Of a stretch of 64,000 nt of DNA, positions 42,312 through 62,105 are shown piece after piece. The notes under the pieces are model-generated. The model saw only the letters and a list, made by a program, of their open reading frames with translations, had not been told where the DNA came from and searched no databases. Where the stretch lies: NCBI RefSeq assembly GCF_010093045.1, contig NZ_CP048115.1, forward strand, positions 2,728,001 to 2,792,000, given 5' to 3'. Numbering within the stretch: the stretch's first letter is position 1; each line of letters starts with the position of its first letter. Made by a program: the position numbers and the translations under genes. Source of the stretch: Mucilaginibacter sp. 14171R-50. Lineage in GTDB: Bacteria; Bacteroidota; Bacteroidia; Sphingobacteriales; Sphingobacteriaceae.

Positions 42312-42318
42312 AATTTCG

Positions 42319-42685
42319 TGGAGCCGGAGGGATTCGAACCCTCGTCCAAACATGGTATAAGTAAAGCTTTCTACATGTTTAGCTGTTATTTAATTGTCGG
42401 GGTTATGGAAGGTTAATCGCTTACCTGTACCGTAACCCTTAGGTGCTTTGTTTCGCTTGCTTACCACACCTTAAGCAGGCTATTCTCATTTTTCGATGCC
42501 CCGTTTGCCGATCCAATGAGAAGGAAAACCGGCGGGACAAAAGCTATGCTAATTCTAAATTAGGCAGCTAAGGCGTAGTTATTTTCGCCATTTGTAAGTT
42601 TGAGCGTTCAGATTTAAGCGCTAATTCACACAACGCGCTACATGCTTACTTCATTATCTCCATCCTGTCAATTCCGGTCGACCCC
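42319..42685 (-). ncRNA. ssrA: Transfer-messenger RNA (tmRNA)
   Basis: The tRNA-like ends are clear on the minus strand: 5' GGGGTCG at 42685-42679 pairs over seven positions (two wobbles) with CGGCTCC before the discriminator A at 42319. The T-loop text GGTTCGAATCCC lies between. The tag reading frame at 42589-42560 encodes GENNYALAA then TAA, the tag type usual in Bacteroidota. CCA is not encoded (CGA follows), so it must be added. Together with SmpB it rescues stalled ribosomes. Length is about 367 nt. Confidence 0.96.
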
Positions 42686-55191: not shown

Positions 55192-56283
55192 CTACAGCTT
55201 CGAGTTCCTGTTTCGCAGCCAGTGGTCGGCCAGCACCAAAGCAGCCATAGCCTCTACAATAGGTACAGCACGCGGCACCACACAAGGGTCGTGGCGACCT
55301 TTGCCCGATATTTGGGCGGCATTACCGTGCCCGTCGATGGTTTGCTGGCTTTGCATGATGGTTGCAACCGGTTTAAAGGCAACCTTAAATTCGATAGGCA
55401 TACCATTGCTTATACCGCCCTGTATGCCACCCGAAAAGTTAGTACGGGTGCCGATGCTGCCATCGGTGTTTTTTATAAAAATATCGTTATGCTCTGAGCC
55501 GCGCATTTCGCTGCCGCTAAAACCTGACCCAAACTCGAAACCGTGTACCGCATTGATGCTGAGCATAGCTTTGCCCAGGTCGGCGTGCAGTTTGTCAAAT
55601 ACCGGGTCGCCCAGGCCAACAGGGGCGCCGATGATGTGACAGCTCACCTTGCCGCCAACCGTATCGCCCTGTTTGCGTATGCTGTCTATATATTCTACCA
55701 TCTCGGCGGCAGTGGCCGGGTCAGCGCAGCGCACGATGTTTGCCTCCCTAACTTCTAAAAATTCGGCTGCGGTATCTATAAAAATATTCGGTGCGTTAAT
55801 GGTGCCTACGCTGCTTACGTGTGCCAGTACCTCTATCCCCTGTGTCTTTAATAAAAGTTTGGCTAAGGCCCCTGCAGCCACCCGTGCCGCTGTTTCGCGT
55901 GCCGATGACCGGCCGCCGCCGCGATGATCGCGTATCCCATATTTAGTGGCATAGGTATAATCGGCATGACTGGGGCGAAATACATCCACATTATGGCCGT
56001 AATCTTTTGAGCGCTGATCTTCGTTTGGGATGATCATGGCGATTGGGGTACCGGTGGTTTTACCTTCAAACATACCGGATAGTATCTTTACAGTATCACT
56101 CTCTTTACGTTGTGTTGTAATTTTGGATTGCCCCGGTTTACGTTTATCCAGTTCGGCCTGTATATAATCCAAATCAACATCAAGCCCGGCGGGGCAACCA
56201 TCGATTATTACGCCGATAGCTTCGCCATGTGATTCGCCGAAAGTTGTTATCCTGAATGATTGACCAAATGAATTACCTGCCAT
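55192..56283 (-). CDS. aroC: Chorismate synthase
   Basis: The 363-residue enzyme converts EPSP to chorismate, the final shikimate step, using reduced FMN. Signatures are [23 protein letters not shown] at the start, [26 protein letters not shown] and the C-terminal [26 protein letters not shown]. Length is normal. It follows aroA on the same strand but is separated by 162 bp of repeat DNA, which could split or attenuate the operon. Confidence 0.97.
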
Positions 56284-56445: not shown

Positions 56446-57729
56446 TTATTTTGCCGGGTTAACTTCAAACGACACCTTTTCCAGATCCTTCCAGAACGCC
56501 GGATACGATTTTTCGACCACGTCGGCGTCTTCCACTTCCAGTTCGGGTATCAGCGTGGCCAGCGGCGCAAAGGCCATTGCCATACGGTGATCGTCGTAAG
56601 TGTTTACAAACATACGTTGCGGAATTTGTTTTTCGCTGCAATCCAGTTTGTAAACCTGCCCTTTTTCGATCAGTTTTACGCCAATCTTTGCCAGTTCGGT
56701 TTGCAGGGCTAATATACGGTCGGTTTCTTTAATTTTTAGAGTTTCCAGCCCGGTAAAAGTAGCTTCGTGTCCAAGCGCCGCGCACACCACTATAACGGTT
56801 TGCGCAAGGTCCGGACATTCCTTCAGGTCGAATATCTTACGGAAGATCGGCTTTGGTTCTTTGGTTAAGTATACGCCGCTATCCTTAAATACCGAAGTGA
56901 TACCAAAGTTGGCCATCAGCTCGGTGATCACACTATCACCCTGCAGGCTATAAGATGTTAACCCTGGCAAGAAAAGTTCGGCTTCATCGCTCAAAGCGGC
57001 TATAGCGTACCAATATGAAGCCGCGCTCCAATCGGGTTCTACATGCAGCGCTGTTTCTGCAAACGGCTGATTTTCTATAGTAATAACATTATCCTGCCAC
57101 GTATGCTGTATGCCCGCCTGCTTAAGCATGGCTAAGGTCATTTCTACGTACGGGCGGGATGTTAGGTCACCCTCAATCTGCATGGATAGCCCTTTGGGCA
57201 GGCTCGATGCGATAAGCAGCAACGCGGTAATATACTGACTGCTTATATCTCCTTTTATGCTGATGCGGTTTGCCTGCTGCTGAAATCCACCGTAAATTTT
57301 GATGGGCGGATAACCCTCATTATTTACATAATCAATCCTGGCGCCCAGTTTACGCATGGCATCTACCAGTATCCCGATAGGGCGCTGCTGCATCCGCTCT
57401 GAGCCGGTAAGTGTTACTTCGTTGCCTTGCAAAGGCAGGTATGCGGTTAAAAAACGCATAGCCGTACCTGCGGGACCTATGTTTACAAGCCTCAAGTCCT
57501 CAGTATTAAGTTCTGAGTCTTCCTGACTTTCGACTTCAAACTGCTGACTTAAGACTTCTTTCAAGGTAACCGCGTCCGCGGCATCCGACATGTTTTCGAC
57601 CTTTACCTTGCCACCGCTTAATGCCTGGATGATGAGGGCTCGGTTACACTCACTTTTTGATCCTGTCAGGTGTATCGTGCCTTTCGCCGAATTGCCTTTT
57701 TTTGTAAGAATGATATTTTGTTTTGCCAT
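56446..57729 (-). CDS. aroA: 3-phosphoshikimate 1-carboxyvinyltransferase (EPSP synthase)
   Basis: The ~427-residue enzyme joins phosphoenolpyruvate to shikimate-3-phosphate. It has LTGSKSECNRALI (phosphate and shikimate contact), NIGPAGTAMRFLTAYL, GSERMQQRPIGILVDAM and YDDHRMAMAFAPL. The frame is open to 57756, but ATG 57729 (MAKQNIILTKKG) matches the family start. Residues ~50-75 (QQFEVESQEDSEL) are acidic and are encoded by a short-word repeat inserted in frame just before the NIGPAGT loop; I know no counterpart in other EPSP synthases. Confidence 0.95.
   Translation of the reverse strand: MAKQNIILTKKGNSAKGTIHLTGSKSECNRALIIQALSGGKVKVENMSDAADAVTLKEVLSQQFEVESQEDSELNTEDLRLVNIGPAGTAMRFLTAYLPLQGNEVTLTGSERMQQRPIGILVDAMRKLGARIDYVNNEGYPPIKIYGGFQQQANRISIKGDISSQYITALLLIASSLPKGLSMQIEGDLTSRPYVEMTLAMLKQAGIQHTWQDNVITIENQPFAETALHVEPDWSAASYWYAIAALSDEAELFLPGLTSYSLQGDSVITELMANFGITSVFKDSGVYLTKEPKPIFRKIFDLKECPDLAQTVIVVCAALGHEATFTGLETLKIKETDRILALQTELAKIGVKLIEKGQVYKLDCSEKQIPQRMFVNTYDDHRMAMAFAPLATLIPELEVEDADVVEKSYPAFWKDLEKVSFEVNPAK
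57488..57559. repeat. Short-word repeat inside the aroA coding region
   Basis: The DNA consists of variants of the word gactt/aagtc (cctcaagtcctcag, ctgagtcttcctgactttcg, acttcaaactgctgactta) with a small hairpin ctcag-aacttaata-ctgag. It keeps the aroA frame open and adds roughly ten or more residues. Confidence 0.6.
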
Positions 57730-57833
57730 TATTGCACCGGTTAGTTTATTGGTCACATTTATGATGATAGTTAGCGGCGGTGAGGACAGCCTTAGGTAAA
57801 ATTACCGCCTTAGGAATGATTTAATATCCTAAA

Positions 57834-57866: not shown

Positions 57867-58997
57867 TTACGCGTGTGTCAATTTTTCTGCCGGGGCCGAT
57901 TCCTGTCCCTGGTTCATGATCTCGGTTTGCTTACGGATAGATTCGCTGTGCATCAGTTCCAGCAATTTCTCGGTAAATTCGGTACTCAATTTTAATGCTT
58001 TGGCATAACCGGTACGTTTCTGTAATATTTCGTCCCAACGGTTTACCTGCAAAATAGTGATATTATTATCCTTTTTGTAGTTACCAATCTTCTCAACAAT
58101 TTTCATACGCTCGGCCATCTTCTGAATAACCAGGTCATCAATTTTATCAATCTGGTTGCGTAGTTCGGCAAGTTTGTCATTCAGCTCGGCACCTTTAACT
58201 TCCGGTTTACGTAAGGCCAGGTGATCTATAATTTCAGATAGCGCGGCAGGGGTAACCTGTTGTGCGGCATCTGTCCAGGCAACAGTAGGGTCAATGTGTG
58301 ACTCGATCATCAGGCCCTGCATATCAAGGTCTAACGCTTTCTGCGAAATGTAACCTATCAGGTCGCGGTTGCCGGTAATGTGGCTTGGGTCGTTGATGAT
58401 AGGCAGGTTTGGTACCAGCGTTTTTAAAGCTATCGCGATGTCCCACATAGGTTCGTTACGAAAAGCCGATTTTTCATATGACGAGAACCCGCGGTGAATA
58501 GCCGCCAGTTTAGTGATGCCGGCATTGTTAATACGCTCTAACGCGCCTACCCATAACGAAAGATCGGGGTTAACAGGGTTTTTAACCATAACCGGTACAT
58601 CAACACCGCGCAAAGCATCAGCAATTTCCTGTACGGTGAAAGGGTTAACAGTACTGCGTGCACCAACCCAAAGGATATCTACACCGGCGTTTAAGGCCTC
58701 TTCAACGTGTTTAGCGGTAGCTACCTCTACAGCGGTTGGCAGGCCGGTCTCTTCTTTAGCGCGTTTTAACCACTCTAAACCAATGCTGCCAATGCCTTCA
58801 AACTCGCCCGGGCGGGTACGGGGTTTCCAGATACCTGCACGCAGGGCGCTGATTTTACCGGTTTTTGCTAATAAATGCGCGGTCGCAACCAACTGATCTT
58901 CAGTTTCGGCGCTGCACGGGCCTGCAATTACAAGAGGCTCTTTGCCCGATTTATTGATCCACGAATTAAGGGGCTGTATGTTTAAGTTATGTTTCAT
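57867..58997 (-). CDS. DAHP synthase (type I-beta/KDO8P-like) fused to chorismate mutase
   Basis: The 376-residue bifunctional enzyme makes DAHP from PEP and erythrose-4-phosphate and also converts chorismate to prephenate. Residues ~1-265 are the synthase: VIAGPCSAETEDQL, RAGIWKPRTRPGEFEG, PVMVKNPVNPD and IESHIDPT. Residues ~270-360 are an AroQ-type mutase: ELRNQIDKIDDLVIQKMAERMKIVEKIGNYKK. The C-terminal fusion is common in Bacteroidota. The mutase part may give Phe/Tyr feedback control. It follows pheA by 108 bp and lies in the same unit. Confidence 0.95.
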   Translation of the reverse strand: MKHNLNIQPLNSWINKSGKEPLVIAGPCSAETEDQLVATAHLLAKTGKISALRAGIWKPRTRPGEFEGIGSIGLEWLKRAKEETGLPTAVEVATAKHVEEALNAGVDILWVGARSTVNPFTVQEIADALRGVDVPVMVKNPVNPDLSLWVGALERINNAGITKLAAIHRGFSSYEKSAFRNEPMWDIAIALKTLVPNLPIINDPSHITGNRDLIGYISQKALDLDMQGLMIESHIDPTVAWTDAAQQVTPAALSEIIDHLALRKPEVKGAELNDKLAELRNQIDKIDDLVIQKMAERMKIVEKIGNYKKDNNITILQVNRWDEILQKRTGYAKALKLSTEFTEKLLELMHSESIRKQTEIMNQGQESAPAEKLTHA

Positions 58998-59009: not shown

Positions 59010-59141
59010 AGTCCGGAAGTCCGAAAGTCGGTTAAGTCCGGAAGATTATTGTTTATGTTTCTGTTATTTTTTTGTTATGTGTCACTTTCGGTAATCCGAC
59101 TTCTTCTATTCTTTCGGACTTTCCGACGGCGGACTTCCGAC
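59010..59141. repeat. Short-word repeat (gtccggaagtccg type) spanning the pheA 3' end
   Basis: Arms at 59010-59044 and 59085-59141 contain many copies of agtccg/cggact in inverted orientation. The right arm runs into the pheA coding sequence and encodes its last ~11 residues (VGSPPSESPKE) and stop codon. Confidence 0.65.
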
Positions 59142-60035
59142 TTTTTTTACACTGATGTATTTTTTTGTTTTTTCGGCTTTCAAGGGTTTAGGGGTGGTAT
59201 CGTCCTCAAACCGCTGATACTCGCCCAGTATGTTAAAATTGTGTGTGTATTTTAATATCTGCCTAATGGCGGCATCGTATTGTTTGCCTTCTTCCCACTC
59301 TATATCCACATAAAAATTATAGTCGTTTGGCTTGCCTAAAACAGGCATGCTCTGAATTTTGCTCATGTTCACGTTTTCCTGAGCGAAAATATTAAGCACT
59401 TTTGCCAGCGAGCCAACCTCGTTACTTACCTGGAAACATAGCGAAGCTTTGTTACCCCCGGTTTTCTTTTTAGCATTTTCATGCGTGGTAAGTATCAAAA
59501 AGCGCGTAAAATTCTTTTTGTTCGATTCTATCCGGCGCTCCAGAACATCTAAACCATATAATTGAGCCGCAAGCGTGTTGGCTATGGCTACGGTGTCAGT
59601 CAAATTTTCCTCGCGGATGCGTTTGGCACAAGCGGCCGTATCGCTGCTTTCTACTATTTTAAGATGAGGGTATTCGTCAAAAAAATCGATGCACTGGCGA
59701 ATAGCGATAGGATGGGAGGTTACGTATTTAATTTGCTCGAACCTTACACCCGGCAAAGCCATCAGGTGCAGTTGTATCGGGATGTAAACCTCGCCAACCA
59801 CCGGGAAGCTGTAACTCATCATGAGCGAATAGTTTGGCAATATGCTGCCTGCAATGCTGTTTTCAATAGCCATCACCACATAATCAGCTTCTTTTTTCTG
59901 CAAAGCTTCAAACGTTTGCTTAAAAGAGTTACACTCAATGGTTTCAATGTCCTGGCCAAAGTATTTAAAAGCCGCTTCTTCGTGAAACGAAGCGCGTGTA
60001 CCTTGTATAGCAACTCTTGGTTTTTCTGTTTTCAT
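59106..60035 (-). CDS. pheA: Prephenate dehydratase with ACT regulatory domain
   Basis: The 309-residue enzyme converts prephenate to phenylpyruvate. The catalytic domain has RVAIQGTRASFHEEAAFKYF, AIENSIAGSILPNY, HPIAIRQC, SSDTAACAKR and the NFTRFLIL active-site motif. The ACT domain (~190-270) has SLCFQVSNEVGSLAKVLNIFA and MSKIQSMPVLGKPNDYNFYVDIE, where phenylalanine binds in relatives. The C-terminal tail beyond residue ~280 is lysine/proline-rich, its last 11 residues coming from a repeat. The gene is preceded by an attenuator-type leader. Confidence 0.96.
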   Translation of the reverse strand: MKTEKPRVAIQGTRASFHEEAAFKYFGQDIETIECNSFKQTFEALQKKEADYVVMAIENSIAGSILPNYSLMMSYSFPVVGEVYIPIQLHLMALPGVRFEQIKYVTSHPIAIRQCIDFFDEYPHLKIVESSDTAACAKRIREENLTDTVAIANTLAAQLYGLDVLERRIESNKKNFTRFLILTTHENAKKKTGGNKASLCFQVSNEVGSLAKVLNIFAQENVNMSKIQSMPVLGKPNDYNFYVDIEWEEGKQYDAAIRQILKYTHNFNILGEYQRFEDDTTPKPLKAEKTKKYISVKKVGSPPSESPKE

Positions 60036-60050
60036 TATGCGTATAAAGCA

Positions 60051-60081
60051 AAAAGTCCCGGCTTTCTGGGCCGGGACTTTT
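60051..60081 (-). terminator. Leader terminator upstream of pheA (attenuator hairpin)
   Basis: On the minus strand AAAAGTCCCGGC (60081-60070) pairs over 12 bp with GCCGGGACTTTT (60062-60051) across a 7-base loop, followed by T. It lies between the leader peptide ORF and the pheA start, so it would block pheA unless disrupted. The 5' arm can instead pair with GCCGGGACT at 60121-60113. Confidence 0.85.
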
Positions 60082-60110
60082 CAGTGTTTTGTATGTTTTG
60101 TTAGTACATA

Positions 60111-60176
60111 TCAGTCCCGGCTCTTACTGGTAAAGTAAAAGTAGTAACCATAAAAATATGCACGTTGTGTTGTCAT
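60111..60176 (-). CDS. Phe/Tyr-rich leader peptide of the pheA operon
   Basis: A 21-codon ORF begins ATG at 60176 and ends TGA at 60113-60111. Residues 7-15 read YFYGYYFYF, eight aromatic out of nine, all Phe or Tyr. Its promoter is TTG-N19-TACATTTA just upstream. Codons 19-21 and the stop overlap the sequence GCCGGGACT (60121-60113), which can pair with the 5' arm of the terminator at 60070-60078. A ribosome stalled at the Phe/Tyr codons would leave that segment free and form the antiterminator; a ribosome reaching the stop would mask it and allow termination. This is the E. coli pheL logic, inferred from sequence. Confidence 0.85.
   Translation of the reverse strand: MTTQRAYFYGYYFYFTSKSRD
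60113..60121 (-). promoter_or_regulatory. Antiterminator segment of the pheA attenuator
   Basis: Minus-strand GCCGGGACT is an exact copy of the terminator 3' arm (60059-60054 region, GCCGGGACT) and is fully complementary to AGTCCCGGC in the 5' arm (60078-60070). It overlaps the last codons and stop of the leader ORF. Confidence 0.8.
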
Positions 60177-60190
60177 TGTTTGTTATGCCG

Positions 60191-60220
60191 TAAATGTACA
60201 AGTAAAAATTGTTTTGTCAA
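60191..60220 (-). promoter_or_regulatory. Promoter of the pheA leader transcript
   Basis: TTG (60220-60218), a 19-bp spacer and TACATTTA (60198-60191) match the Bacteroidota form except for the last base of the -7 box. Transcription would start about ten bases before the leader ATG. Confidence 0.65.
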
Positions 60221-60289: not shown

Positions 60290-60955
60290 TTATGTTGCAG
60301 GCTTTGCCGGTACCGGAACAAGCTTGGGTTGGGTAATGCCTTGTTTTTGATACACGTCCTTATTCATCTCAAAATGCATCTCCGACATTTGATTCTGATA
60401 CTCCTCTATGGCTTCTAAGCCCACCTGGTAGCGGCGCTGGTTTACATTGGCGCTATCGGCAAGCGGGCGCGGTATAGCCTGGCATAACTTGGTATTATAG
60501 GTCATTTGTGTGCCGTATACCTGTTTTTTACCTGTGTTCAGGTTCACCCGGTCTGTTAAATAAGCGAAATTTTTGGCGTCACCATTCTTTTTAAGCACCT
60601 CCGGCTTCATAGCCTCCAGCACTTGTTGTTGAAAAGCAGGCCATTTATCGCAGTGTTGTACCATAAGCCAAAAGTTGTTCGATCCTGTTTTTCCCACCTG
60701 ATCAAAACCCGGGTACCCGTACTTTTTAAAAATAGTTTCTAACAGTTGCTGGTGACTGGCAAATACGCTGTCTTTAAACTTGTCCCATTTTTCGCGTGGC
60801 CACTCTTTGTAAACACCTTCGGGTACTTTGGCTGCAATTTGGTCTACCACTACCCATTTGGCAAGGCTATCAGCCAGCGGTTGGTTAAATTTCTTTTGCT
60901 GGGCAAAGCTTACCAGCGTAATGCACATCAGCAATAATGTTAATTTACTTTTCAT
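60290..60955 (-). CDS. Exported DUF6624 protein
   Basis: The 221-residue protein has a signal peptide (LLLMCITLVSFAQ). The mature part has the DUF6624-like text KKYGYPGFDQVGKTGSNNFWLMVQHCDKWPAFQQQVL and AYLTDRVNLNTGKKQVYGTQM. The function of this family is unknown. It lies between aroB and the pheA leader on the same strand, with 91 bp to aroB. An association with aromatic metabolism is not implied by the sequence. Confidence 0.82.
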   Translation of the reverse strand: MKSKLTLLLMCITLVSFAQQKKFNQPLADSLAKWVVVDQIAAKVPEGVYKEWPREKWDKFKDSVFASHQQLLETIFKKYGYPGFDQVGKTGSNNFWLMVQHCDKWPAFQQQVLEAMKPEVLKKNGDAKNFAYLTDRVNLNTGKKQVYGTQMTYNTKLCQAIPRPLADSANVNQRRYQVGLEAIEEYQNQMSEMHFEMNKDVYQKQGITQPKLVPVPAKPAT

Positions 60956-61046: not shown

Positions 61047-62105
61047 TTAAACCGTGGCGTAATACCTTAAACTATCGTAAAGCTCGTCGGCATTGCAAAT
61101 GTTATCAATACTATACCGGCCAATATGCTTAAGCAGGGTGCAATTGATCTGGCCGTTCTGGTTCTTTTTATCCTTAAGCATATGTTCCAACAGGGTAGGG
61201 AAGATGCTTTCGTCAATTTTATATTTTGGATACAAGCCGTTTAACACCTGCGCTATTTCGGTCAGTTCATTATCGGGTAAGCCGATCTTTTTATTTGATA
61301 ACCAGGCCTCGCAGATCATGCCAATGGCAATAGCTTCGCCGTGAGATAGCGGGTCTTCATCGTTCATCAGCGACCAGGTTTCAACTGCGTGGCCAACGGT
61401 ATGGCCAAAATTCAGCGCCTTGCGGATGCCTTTTTCGTGCGGGTCCTCTATCACCACTTCGTTTTTGATCTCGACGGAGCGGTGAACCAGTTGCGCCGAT
61501 GGCTGGCTGAGGTCGCTGGTTTTTAGTTGATCCCAATATGCCGCATCTACAATAAGGCCATGCTTCAGCATTTCGGCAAGGCCCGATAATATCTGGCGGG
61601 CAGGAAGGGTTTTCAGGAAATCCGCATGCATAAACACCGCCTTAGGCTGCGTAAATGTGCCGATGATATTTTTTACGCCATCCAGATCAACCCCCGTTTT
61701 GCCTCCGACCGAGGCATCAACCTGCGATAGCAGGGTAGTGGGTACCTGCACAAAATCTATCCCCCTTTTATAAGTAGATGCAACAAAACCGCCCATATCG
61801 GTAATAACGCCGCCACCCAGGTTTATCATGAGGGCTTTGCGGTCGGCCCCAAAGTCGATCAGCATTTTCCAAATGCCCACGCAAAAATCAATGTTCTTGC
61901 TTTCCTCGCCCGCATTTACTTCAATAATATCAAAGTTATCAAACGCATCAAGCTGTTGCTTTACTATGGGGAGGCAATGTTCGCCTGTATTTTCATCGGT
62001 AAGTATAAACACCCTGGAGTAGTTGCCCTGCTTTACAAAGTTTGCCAGTTGAGTTATGCTATTATCAAAAAAGATAGGGTAGCTGTCGCTTTGGATGGTT
62101 TGCAT
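61047..62105 (-). CDS. aroB: 3-dehydroquinate synthase
   Basis: The 352-residue NAD- and Zn-dependent enzyme cyclises DAHP to dehydroquinate. It shows NLGGGVITDMGGFVASTYKRGI, PTTLLSQVDASVGGKTGVDLDGVKN, GLAEMLKHGLI and the metal ligands in NFGHTVGHAVE. Length is normal. It starts 2 bp after the S4-domain gene and precedes the DUF6624 gene, separated from the pheA cluster. Confidence 0.97.
   Translation of the reverse strand: MQTIQSDSYPIFFDNSITQLANFVKQGNYSRVFILTDENTGEHCLPIVKQQLDAFDNFDIIEVNAGEESKNIDFCVGIWKMLIDFGADRKALMINLGGGVITDMGGFVASTYKRGIDFVQVPTTLLSQVDASVGGKTGVDLDGVKNIIGTFTQPKAVFMHADFLKTLPARQILSGLAEMLKHGLIVDAAYWDQLKTSDLSQPSAQLVHRSVEIKNEVVIEDPHEKGIRKALNFGHTVGHAVETWSLMNDEDPLSHGEAIAIGMICEAWLSNKKIGLPDNELTEIAQVLNGLYPKYKIDESIFPTLLEHMLKDKKNQNGQINCTLLKHIGRYSIDNICNADELYDSLRYYATV

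Follow-up and report, generated by a model that had tools for sequence, protein, structure and literature searches.

A conserved leader upstream of pheA in Bacteroidia with the features of an attenuator sensing phenylalanine and tyrosine

In Escherichia coli, pheA is controlled by an attenuator whose leader peptide, PheL, senses Phe only, and multivalent leaders of the ilv type sense several amino acids of their operon with a single leader. As of 2010, leader-peptide systems were said to have been demonstrated in Proteobacteria and Actinobacteria alone (PMC2965389), and the coupling of ribosome and polymerase is not general, Bacillus subtilis being considered largely uncoupled (PMC10953045). 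Within the Bacteroidota, a transcriptome study of Flavobacterium psychrophilum described a structured 5′ element ahead of pheA that is conserved in Flavobacteriaceae and found strong signs that amino-acid operons are attenuated through leader peptides (Guerin et al. 2021, PMC9723704); the main-text passages on pheA offer no mechanism and no analysis of Phe/Tyr codons, and their scope is Flavobacteriaceae. The Bacteroid-trp RNA motif RF01692 is a candidate cis-regulatory RNA in Bacteroidetes (Weinberg et al. 2010, PMC2864571) that belongs, by its name, at trp genes, i.e., at an operon other than that of the pheA element. Here we describe an element located before pheA in Mucilaginibacter sp. 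14171R-50 that is very probably a ribosome-mediated transcription attenuator of the trp/phe type, responding to charged tRNA-Phe and tRNA-Tyr.

Leader ORF and competing RNA arms before pheA

The window, by which we mean the whole 64,000-nt stretch of DNA that was analysed, carries the element on the minus strand at 60220-60036, with the following parts:

60191-60220, minus strand: Bacteroidota-type promoter pattern, with TTG at 60220-60218, a 19-nt spacer and TACATTTA at 60198-60191, read from the sequence
60111-60176, minus strand: leader ORF of 21 codons, read from the sequence and kept in relatives, encoding the peptide MTTQRAYFYGYYFYFTSKSRD followed by a stop
60156-60163, minus strand: outer helix, 5′ strand, GUGCAUAU, pairing with AUAUGUAC at 60111-60104
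60134-60141, minus strand: intra-ORF hairpin, 5′ strand, CUUUUACU, pairing with AGUAAGAG at 60128-60121
60121-60128, minus strand: intra-ORF hairpin, 3′ strand, AGUAAGAG, pairing with CUUUUACU
60113-60121, minus strand: segment 2, GCCGGGACU, at the ORF end, forming the 5′ arm of the antiterminator; pairing with segment 3 is 96.8% in Sphingobacteriaceae, with class-wide covariation
60104-60111, minus strand: outer helix, 3′ strand, AUAUGUAC, of which UAUGU (60110-60106) additionally pairs with ACAUA (60096-60092) inside the antiterminator
60070-60078, minus strand: segment 3, AGUCCCGGC, terminator 5′ arm, pairing with segment 2 in the antiterminator or with segment 4 in the terminator
60054-60062, minus strand: segment 4, terminator 3′ arm, GCCGGGACU; 98.4% paired, with covariation
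60050-60054, minus strand: U-run of the intrinsic terminator, whose full stem joins 60082-60070 with 60062-60050

The sensor codons of the leader ORF are Y7, F8, Y9, Y11, Y12, F13, Y14 and F15 (five Tyr and three Phe), so that eight of the nine codons in the run YFYGYYFYF specify Phe or Tyr; at the local F+Y frequency, the probability of at least eight aromatic codons among 20 is 3e-5. The initial annotation had listed a promoter-like TTG-N19 pattern, a 21-codon ORF with this run and a terminator before pheA, all of which are seen in the sequence. It had further described a 9-base segment at the ORF end that equals the terminator 3′ arm and complements the 5′ arm, and GCCGGGACT was indeed found twice, once where the ORF ends (60121-60113) and once in the terminator 3′ arm (60062-60054), with its complement AGTCCCGGC at 60078-60070. 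The placement of the ORF stop within this segment has to be amended, since the stop codon (60113-60111) shares a single base with segment 2 and thus abuts it. Both hairpins are more stable than expected, with z = -6.3 for the terminator and z = -5.3 for the antiterminator, and none of 200 shuffles was as good in either case. The locus combines, as do attenuators of the trp/phe type, a small ORF in which codons for the product amino acids abound, an intrinsic terminator separating that ORF from the first gene, and a mutually exclusive antiterminator that uses a segment at or after the sensor codons.

A ribosome covers about 12 nt beyond its A-site codon. The last Phe codon begins 13 nt ahead of segment 2 in the window and 9-17 nt ahead in most relatives, and this spacing, along with the abutting stop, fits such a footprint: in the window and in most relatives, segment 2 would be hidden by a ribosome that has reached the stop but left exposed by one stalled on the sensor codons. 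In a few distant loci (L127, L131 and L134) the stop lies about 30 nt beyond segment 2, too far for a ribosome halted there to cover the segment, which would have to be masked in passing.

Two further helices were found in 52 aligned relatives, and together 5 of their 16 pairs have changed on both sides. The intra-ORF hairpin (98.6% of cells paired, both-side changes at two pairs) is probably the 1:2 or pause structure, judging from its likeness to trp and phe leaders. The outer helix (81.7% of cells paired, both-side changes at three pairs) is present in the minimum free energy fold, and because it would form a pseudoknot with the antiterminator, it should block the latter when the ribosome is absent.

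We propose that a short transcript begins a little before the leader ORF. With ample Phe and Tyr, the ribosome would reach the stop and cover segment 2, segments 3 and 4 would pair and transcription would end before pheA. When either amino acid is scarce, the ribosome would stall in YFYGYYFYF and leave segment 2 free to pair with the emerging segment 3, and the resulting antiterminator would allow polymerase to enter pheA, the DAHP synthase-chorismate mutase gene and probably aroA and aroC. If no ribosome is present, segment 2 is probably sequestered by the outer helix formed around the ORF, and termination would be favored. The initial annotation had recognized the geometry of ribosome-mediated attenuation here, and that reading is supported by the conserved ORF, the promoter, the competing arms and their covariation; from these features of the sequence, together with the aromatic codons and the spacing, we infer that the ribosome translates the leader ORF, that its stalling governs readthrough and that the element responds to charged tRNA.

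Conservation and covariation

We compared pheA upstream regions in relatives, as the initial annotation had recommended. The lack of a conserved ORF or alternative pairing that it had named as grounds for rejection was not seen: relatives retain the leader with its aromatic run, the promoter and the alternative arms, and the arms covary across Bacteroidia. The Mucilaginibacter set comprised 80 loci retrieved by pheA, a few of them titled "Bacteroidetes bacterium" but equally close by PheA. The element was present in all 80, with 77 recovered by a simple ORF scan and three more added (L003, L032 and L061); in L032 and L061 a contig end falls inside the leader, and both were counted as carrying the element. 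It was also present in 40/40 other Sphingobacteriaceae genomes sampled and in 42 of 54 other Bacteroidia pheA loci, made up of 23/34 (with L146 counted by eye) and 19/20. In several Bacteroidia loci that lack the element (L136, L145 and L174), pheA lies directly behind another gene and is thus not first in its operon. The promoter pattern TTG-N18-21-TAnnTT[TG][GAC] was found at most 80 nt from the leader ATG in 79 of 83 Mucilaginibacter loci, where shuffles expect 0.5, and at the same distance in 39 of 40 other Sphingobacteriaceae loci, where shuffles expect 0.8.

Outside the class Bacteroidia, 4 of 20 loci carried the element (L187-L190), and these were the loci with the PheA closest to the Bacteroidia protein. 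All four belong to the same phylum but to other classes, and other sampled members of their families are without a Phe/Tyr leader. Horizontal transfer of pheA together with its attenuator is a possible explanation.

The key test of the antiterminator is a permutation of segment 2 against segment 3, because segment 2 lies in or beside coding sequence and its matching change falls in a non-coding arm. Across 45 distant loci, segment 2 scored a mean of 19.3 as a duplex with its own segment 3, a value reached by 0 of 20,000 partner permutations, the highest of which had a mean of 15.3. Support for 2-3 covariation comes from this deeper comparison, since the helix is nearly invariant inside the Sphingobacteriaceae, with one pair showing both-side changes. 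For segments 3 and 4 within the same family, 98.4% of cells were paired and 7 of 11 pairs had both-side changes, and 0 of 500 shuffles were as high. Individual matched changes between segments 2 and 3 were CCAGGAC/GTCCTGG in L105 (RNA CCAGGAC with GUCCUGG), which turns Arg into Gln in the peptide, and AGCTGGGACT/GGTCCCAGCT in L113 (RNA AGCUGGGACU with GGUCCCAGCU), which turns Arg into Trp. Others were GGAGGCGGGA/TCCCGCCTCC in L138, AGCGAGGCTTT/AAAGCCTCGTT in L171 (RNA AGCGAGGCUUU with AAAGCCUCGUU), ACGGGAGG with CCUCCCGU in L137 and GAGCGGGA with UCCCGCUC in L151.

These data bear on the suggestion that a plain terminator of an upstream transcript happens to follow a chance small ORF and an accidental repeat. 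Neither intrinsic terminators nor small AT-rich ORFs are rare, and terminator-like sites in the region barely exceed shuffles; however, conservation in about 160 loci, the permutation result, a promoter just before the ORF and aromatic codons in every case make this the least credible of the explanations considered, with next to no probability.

The peptide itself is a second candidate for the object of selection. An arrest peptide, in which nascent YFYGYYFYF..SKSRD would stall the ribosome on free Phe or Tyr rather than at empty A-sites, as TnaC does with Trp, would agree with the good conservation of the leader peptide within Sphingobacteriaceae. Between lineages, however, the order and identity of the aromatic residues are free (YWFGYFYYF, FGFGFYYFYF, YFNNFFFYFWY and YYFFFYFF), and a residue pattern fixed across the class is absent. 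Moreover, in L042, L074, L075 and L161 a one-base shift closes the ORF early, with peptides ending in FNK, FTK or FNR, so that the SKSRD tail is lost and the stop stands 5 nt ahead of an unaltered GCCGGGACT (RNA GAGCCGGGACU); the same frameshift-like layout occurs in other genera (L089, L095, L102 and L103). Because the frameshifts lose the peptide tail and spare segment 2, the segment appears to be selected as RNA and not as peptide, and we regard peptide arrest as very improbable. These layouts also indicate that the stop need only sit where a finishing ribosome covers segment 2.

Competing hairpins are equally the layout of a riboswitch, and both alternatives fold here, which would suit direct sensing of Phe or Tyr by a riboswitch or by a leader that binds a protein, the ORF being incidental. 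When the window and the leader were scanned against Rfam (gathering score, E-value), the leader matched no family, including Bacteroid-trp RF01692 and T-box, and its best sub-threshold match was Thr_leader at 30.3 bits versus the 55 required. Beyond the arms, the conserved part consists of the coding aromatic codons; the sequence between ORF and terminator is variable among relatives and an aptamer-like conserved core is absent. Direct sensing thus has a very low probability, comparable to that of peptide arrest.

The pheA start codon lies only 15 nt past the U-run, and this short distance would permit a mainly translational mechanism, either by reinitiation or by a terminator hairpin that occludes the pheA start, in place of transcription termination. 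However, nearly all relatives have a U-run after the stem, and in L003, L056, L069, L085, L093 and L095 the pheA start is far past the hairpin, so that occlusion would not be possible there. Translational control consequently seems improbable, if slightly less so than the preceding alternatives, and we retain transcription attenuation as our reading. In L003 (Mucilaginibacter aurantiaciroseus), a small gene is inserted between the attenuator terminator and pheA (L003:4430-5000) and would share control by the attenuator.

Downstream genes and the route to tyrosine

The genes downstream of the leader are as follows:

59106-60035, minus strand: pheA, prephenate dehydratase, the first controlled gene, with its ATG at 60035 (NF008865, 3.5e-61)
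57867-58997, minus strand: DAHP synthase-chorismate mutase fusion, the second gene (NF006421, 4e-51, plus chorismate mutase models)
56446-57756, minus strand: aroA (EPSP synthase), the probable third gene (TIGR01356, above cut-off)
55192-56283, minus strand: aroC (chorismate synthase), a possible fourth gene (TIGR00033, above cut-off)

Family models bear out the names that had been given to all four. A search of the gaps between these genes for the Bacteroidota promoter pattern found none. A weak terminator-like site (56430-56414) separates aroA and aroC, which makes aroC the least certain member of the operon, although its co-transcription with the pheA group is possible. Upstream of the leader, beyond the reach of the attenuator, lie aroB on the same strand (61047-62105, minus strand) and, between aroB and the leader, a 221-aa ORF (60290-60955). 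The window also holds a tmRNA gene (42316-42685, minus strand; RF00023, 129.8 bits).

The dual Phe and Tyr content claimed for the peptide extends to the leaders of relatives, as all 153 unique leaders (70 from Mucilaginibacter, 39 from other Sphingobacteriaceae and 44 others) contain both codons; Trp codons occur additionally in 37 of them. We therefore considered how tyrosine is made. Prephenate dehydrogenase (PF02153, tyrA) was not detected in the host genome, and all 14 control genomes match PF02153. The host has a two-part Biopterin_H match that corresponds to an aromatic amino acid hydroxylase of about 593 aa (NF010657, 727 bits against a cut-off of 346), which matches a solved 592-residue Phe-4-hydroxylase at 5.7e-154. 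Most Mucilaginibacter- and Pedobacter-like genomes sampled likewise lack PF02153 and have the NF010657 hydroxylase; about a dozen sampled genomes have neither by these models. Tyr may thus be made from Phe in the host and in similar genomes, in which case pheA would gate both amino acids and a dual sensor would fit. In genomes of the class with tyrA, this gene is often 1-2 kb downstream of pheA, so that one operon would serve Phe and Tyr there too.

The number of Tyr codons showed no clear relation to the Tyr route (tyrA or Phe hydroxylase), with means of 3.4-4.6 in all groups, and the idea that leader Tyr codons track the route was dropped. With no clear difference in Tyr content between routes, the link between the dual sensor and the origin of Tyr is a reading and not a proof.

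Related leaders and comparison with known systems

The host genome has other candidate leaders, at trpE and hisG, which lend support to the attenuation reading for pheA. A Trp-rich leader peptide, MKNTNLNTNWWHYVKTWQPDSF, is encoded upstream of trpE (L162:1294-1430), and a terminator (CCCGGCGAA..TTCGCCGGGTTTTTTT) comes after it; neither this leader nor that of pheA is matched by RF01692. Upstream of hisG (L164:1366-1430) is a His-rich ORF, MERFKLHHPHLHHHHPVMNR, where inspection by eye showed no clear strong terminator, and no leaders were seen at ilvD and leuA. In three genomes from two other families (G239, G157 and G391, with loci L213, L214 and L215), pheA is preceded by two consecutive Phe/Tyr leader ORFs, which are probably tandem attenuators. 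The case is clearest in L215, in which each of the two modules combines a matching segment with a terminator-like hairpin, the second hairpin having been identified by eye; L213 has a clear first module followed by one that scores lower, and L214 has plausible pairings and no terminators that pass the scan.

The pheA element of F. psychrophilum is very likely the same element, carried by other Bacteroidia loci as well, and our observation is accordingly not wholly new in Bacteroidota, where that element and leader-peptide attenuation were reported earlier (PMC9723704). The present comparison would add class-wide conservation, constant Phe and Tyr sensing and apparent tandem copies in some families, and an earlier prediction in the attenuation survey of Lopatovskaya et al. 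2010 is possible. A further addition would be a host genome with a Phe hydroxylase and no detectable tyrA. The leader provides a defined RNA family missing from Rfam, a model of one sensor governing Phe and Tyr where Tyr may derive from Phe and a ready reporter for a direct test of coupling in Bacteroidota.

The retention of a leader across Bacteroidia through matched RNA changes argues strongly, if indirectly, for functional coupling in a major phylum, and from this conservation we infer that in Bacteroidota the ribosome stays near enough to polymerase for attenuation. On balance, we favor the view that a class-wide Phe and Tyr attenuator, doubled in some families, reflects coupling tight enough for classical attenuation, although Bacteroidota mRNAs generally lack Shine-Dalgarno sites.

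Like the E. coli PheL system, the element joins a short aromatic leader ORF to alternative 2:3 and 3:4 helices and an intrinsic terminator before pheA. It differs in that every leader here has Phe and Tyr codons, some with Trp, that it gives no match at Rfam thresholds, and that it belongs to another phylum, with another type of promoter and an operon including DAHP synthase-chorismate mutase, aroA and aroC. In being multivalent it resembles the ilv-type leaders of E. coli, which sense branched-chain amino acids where the leader described here would sense aromatic ones.
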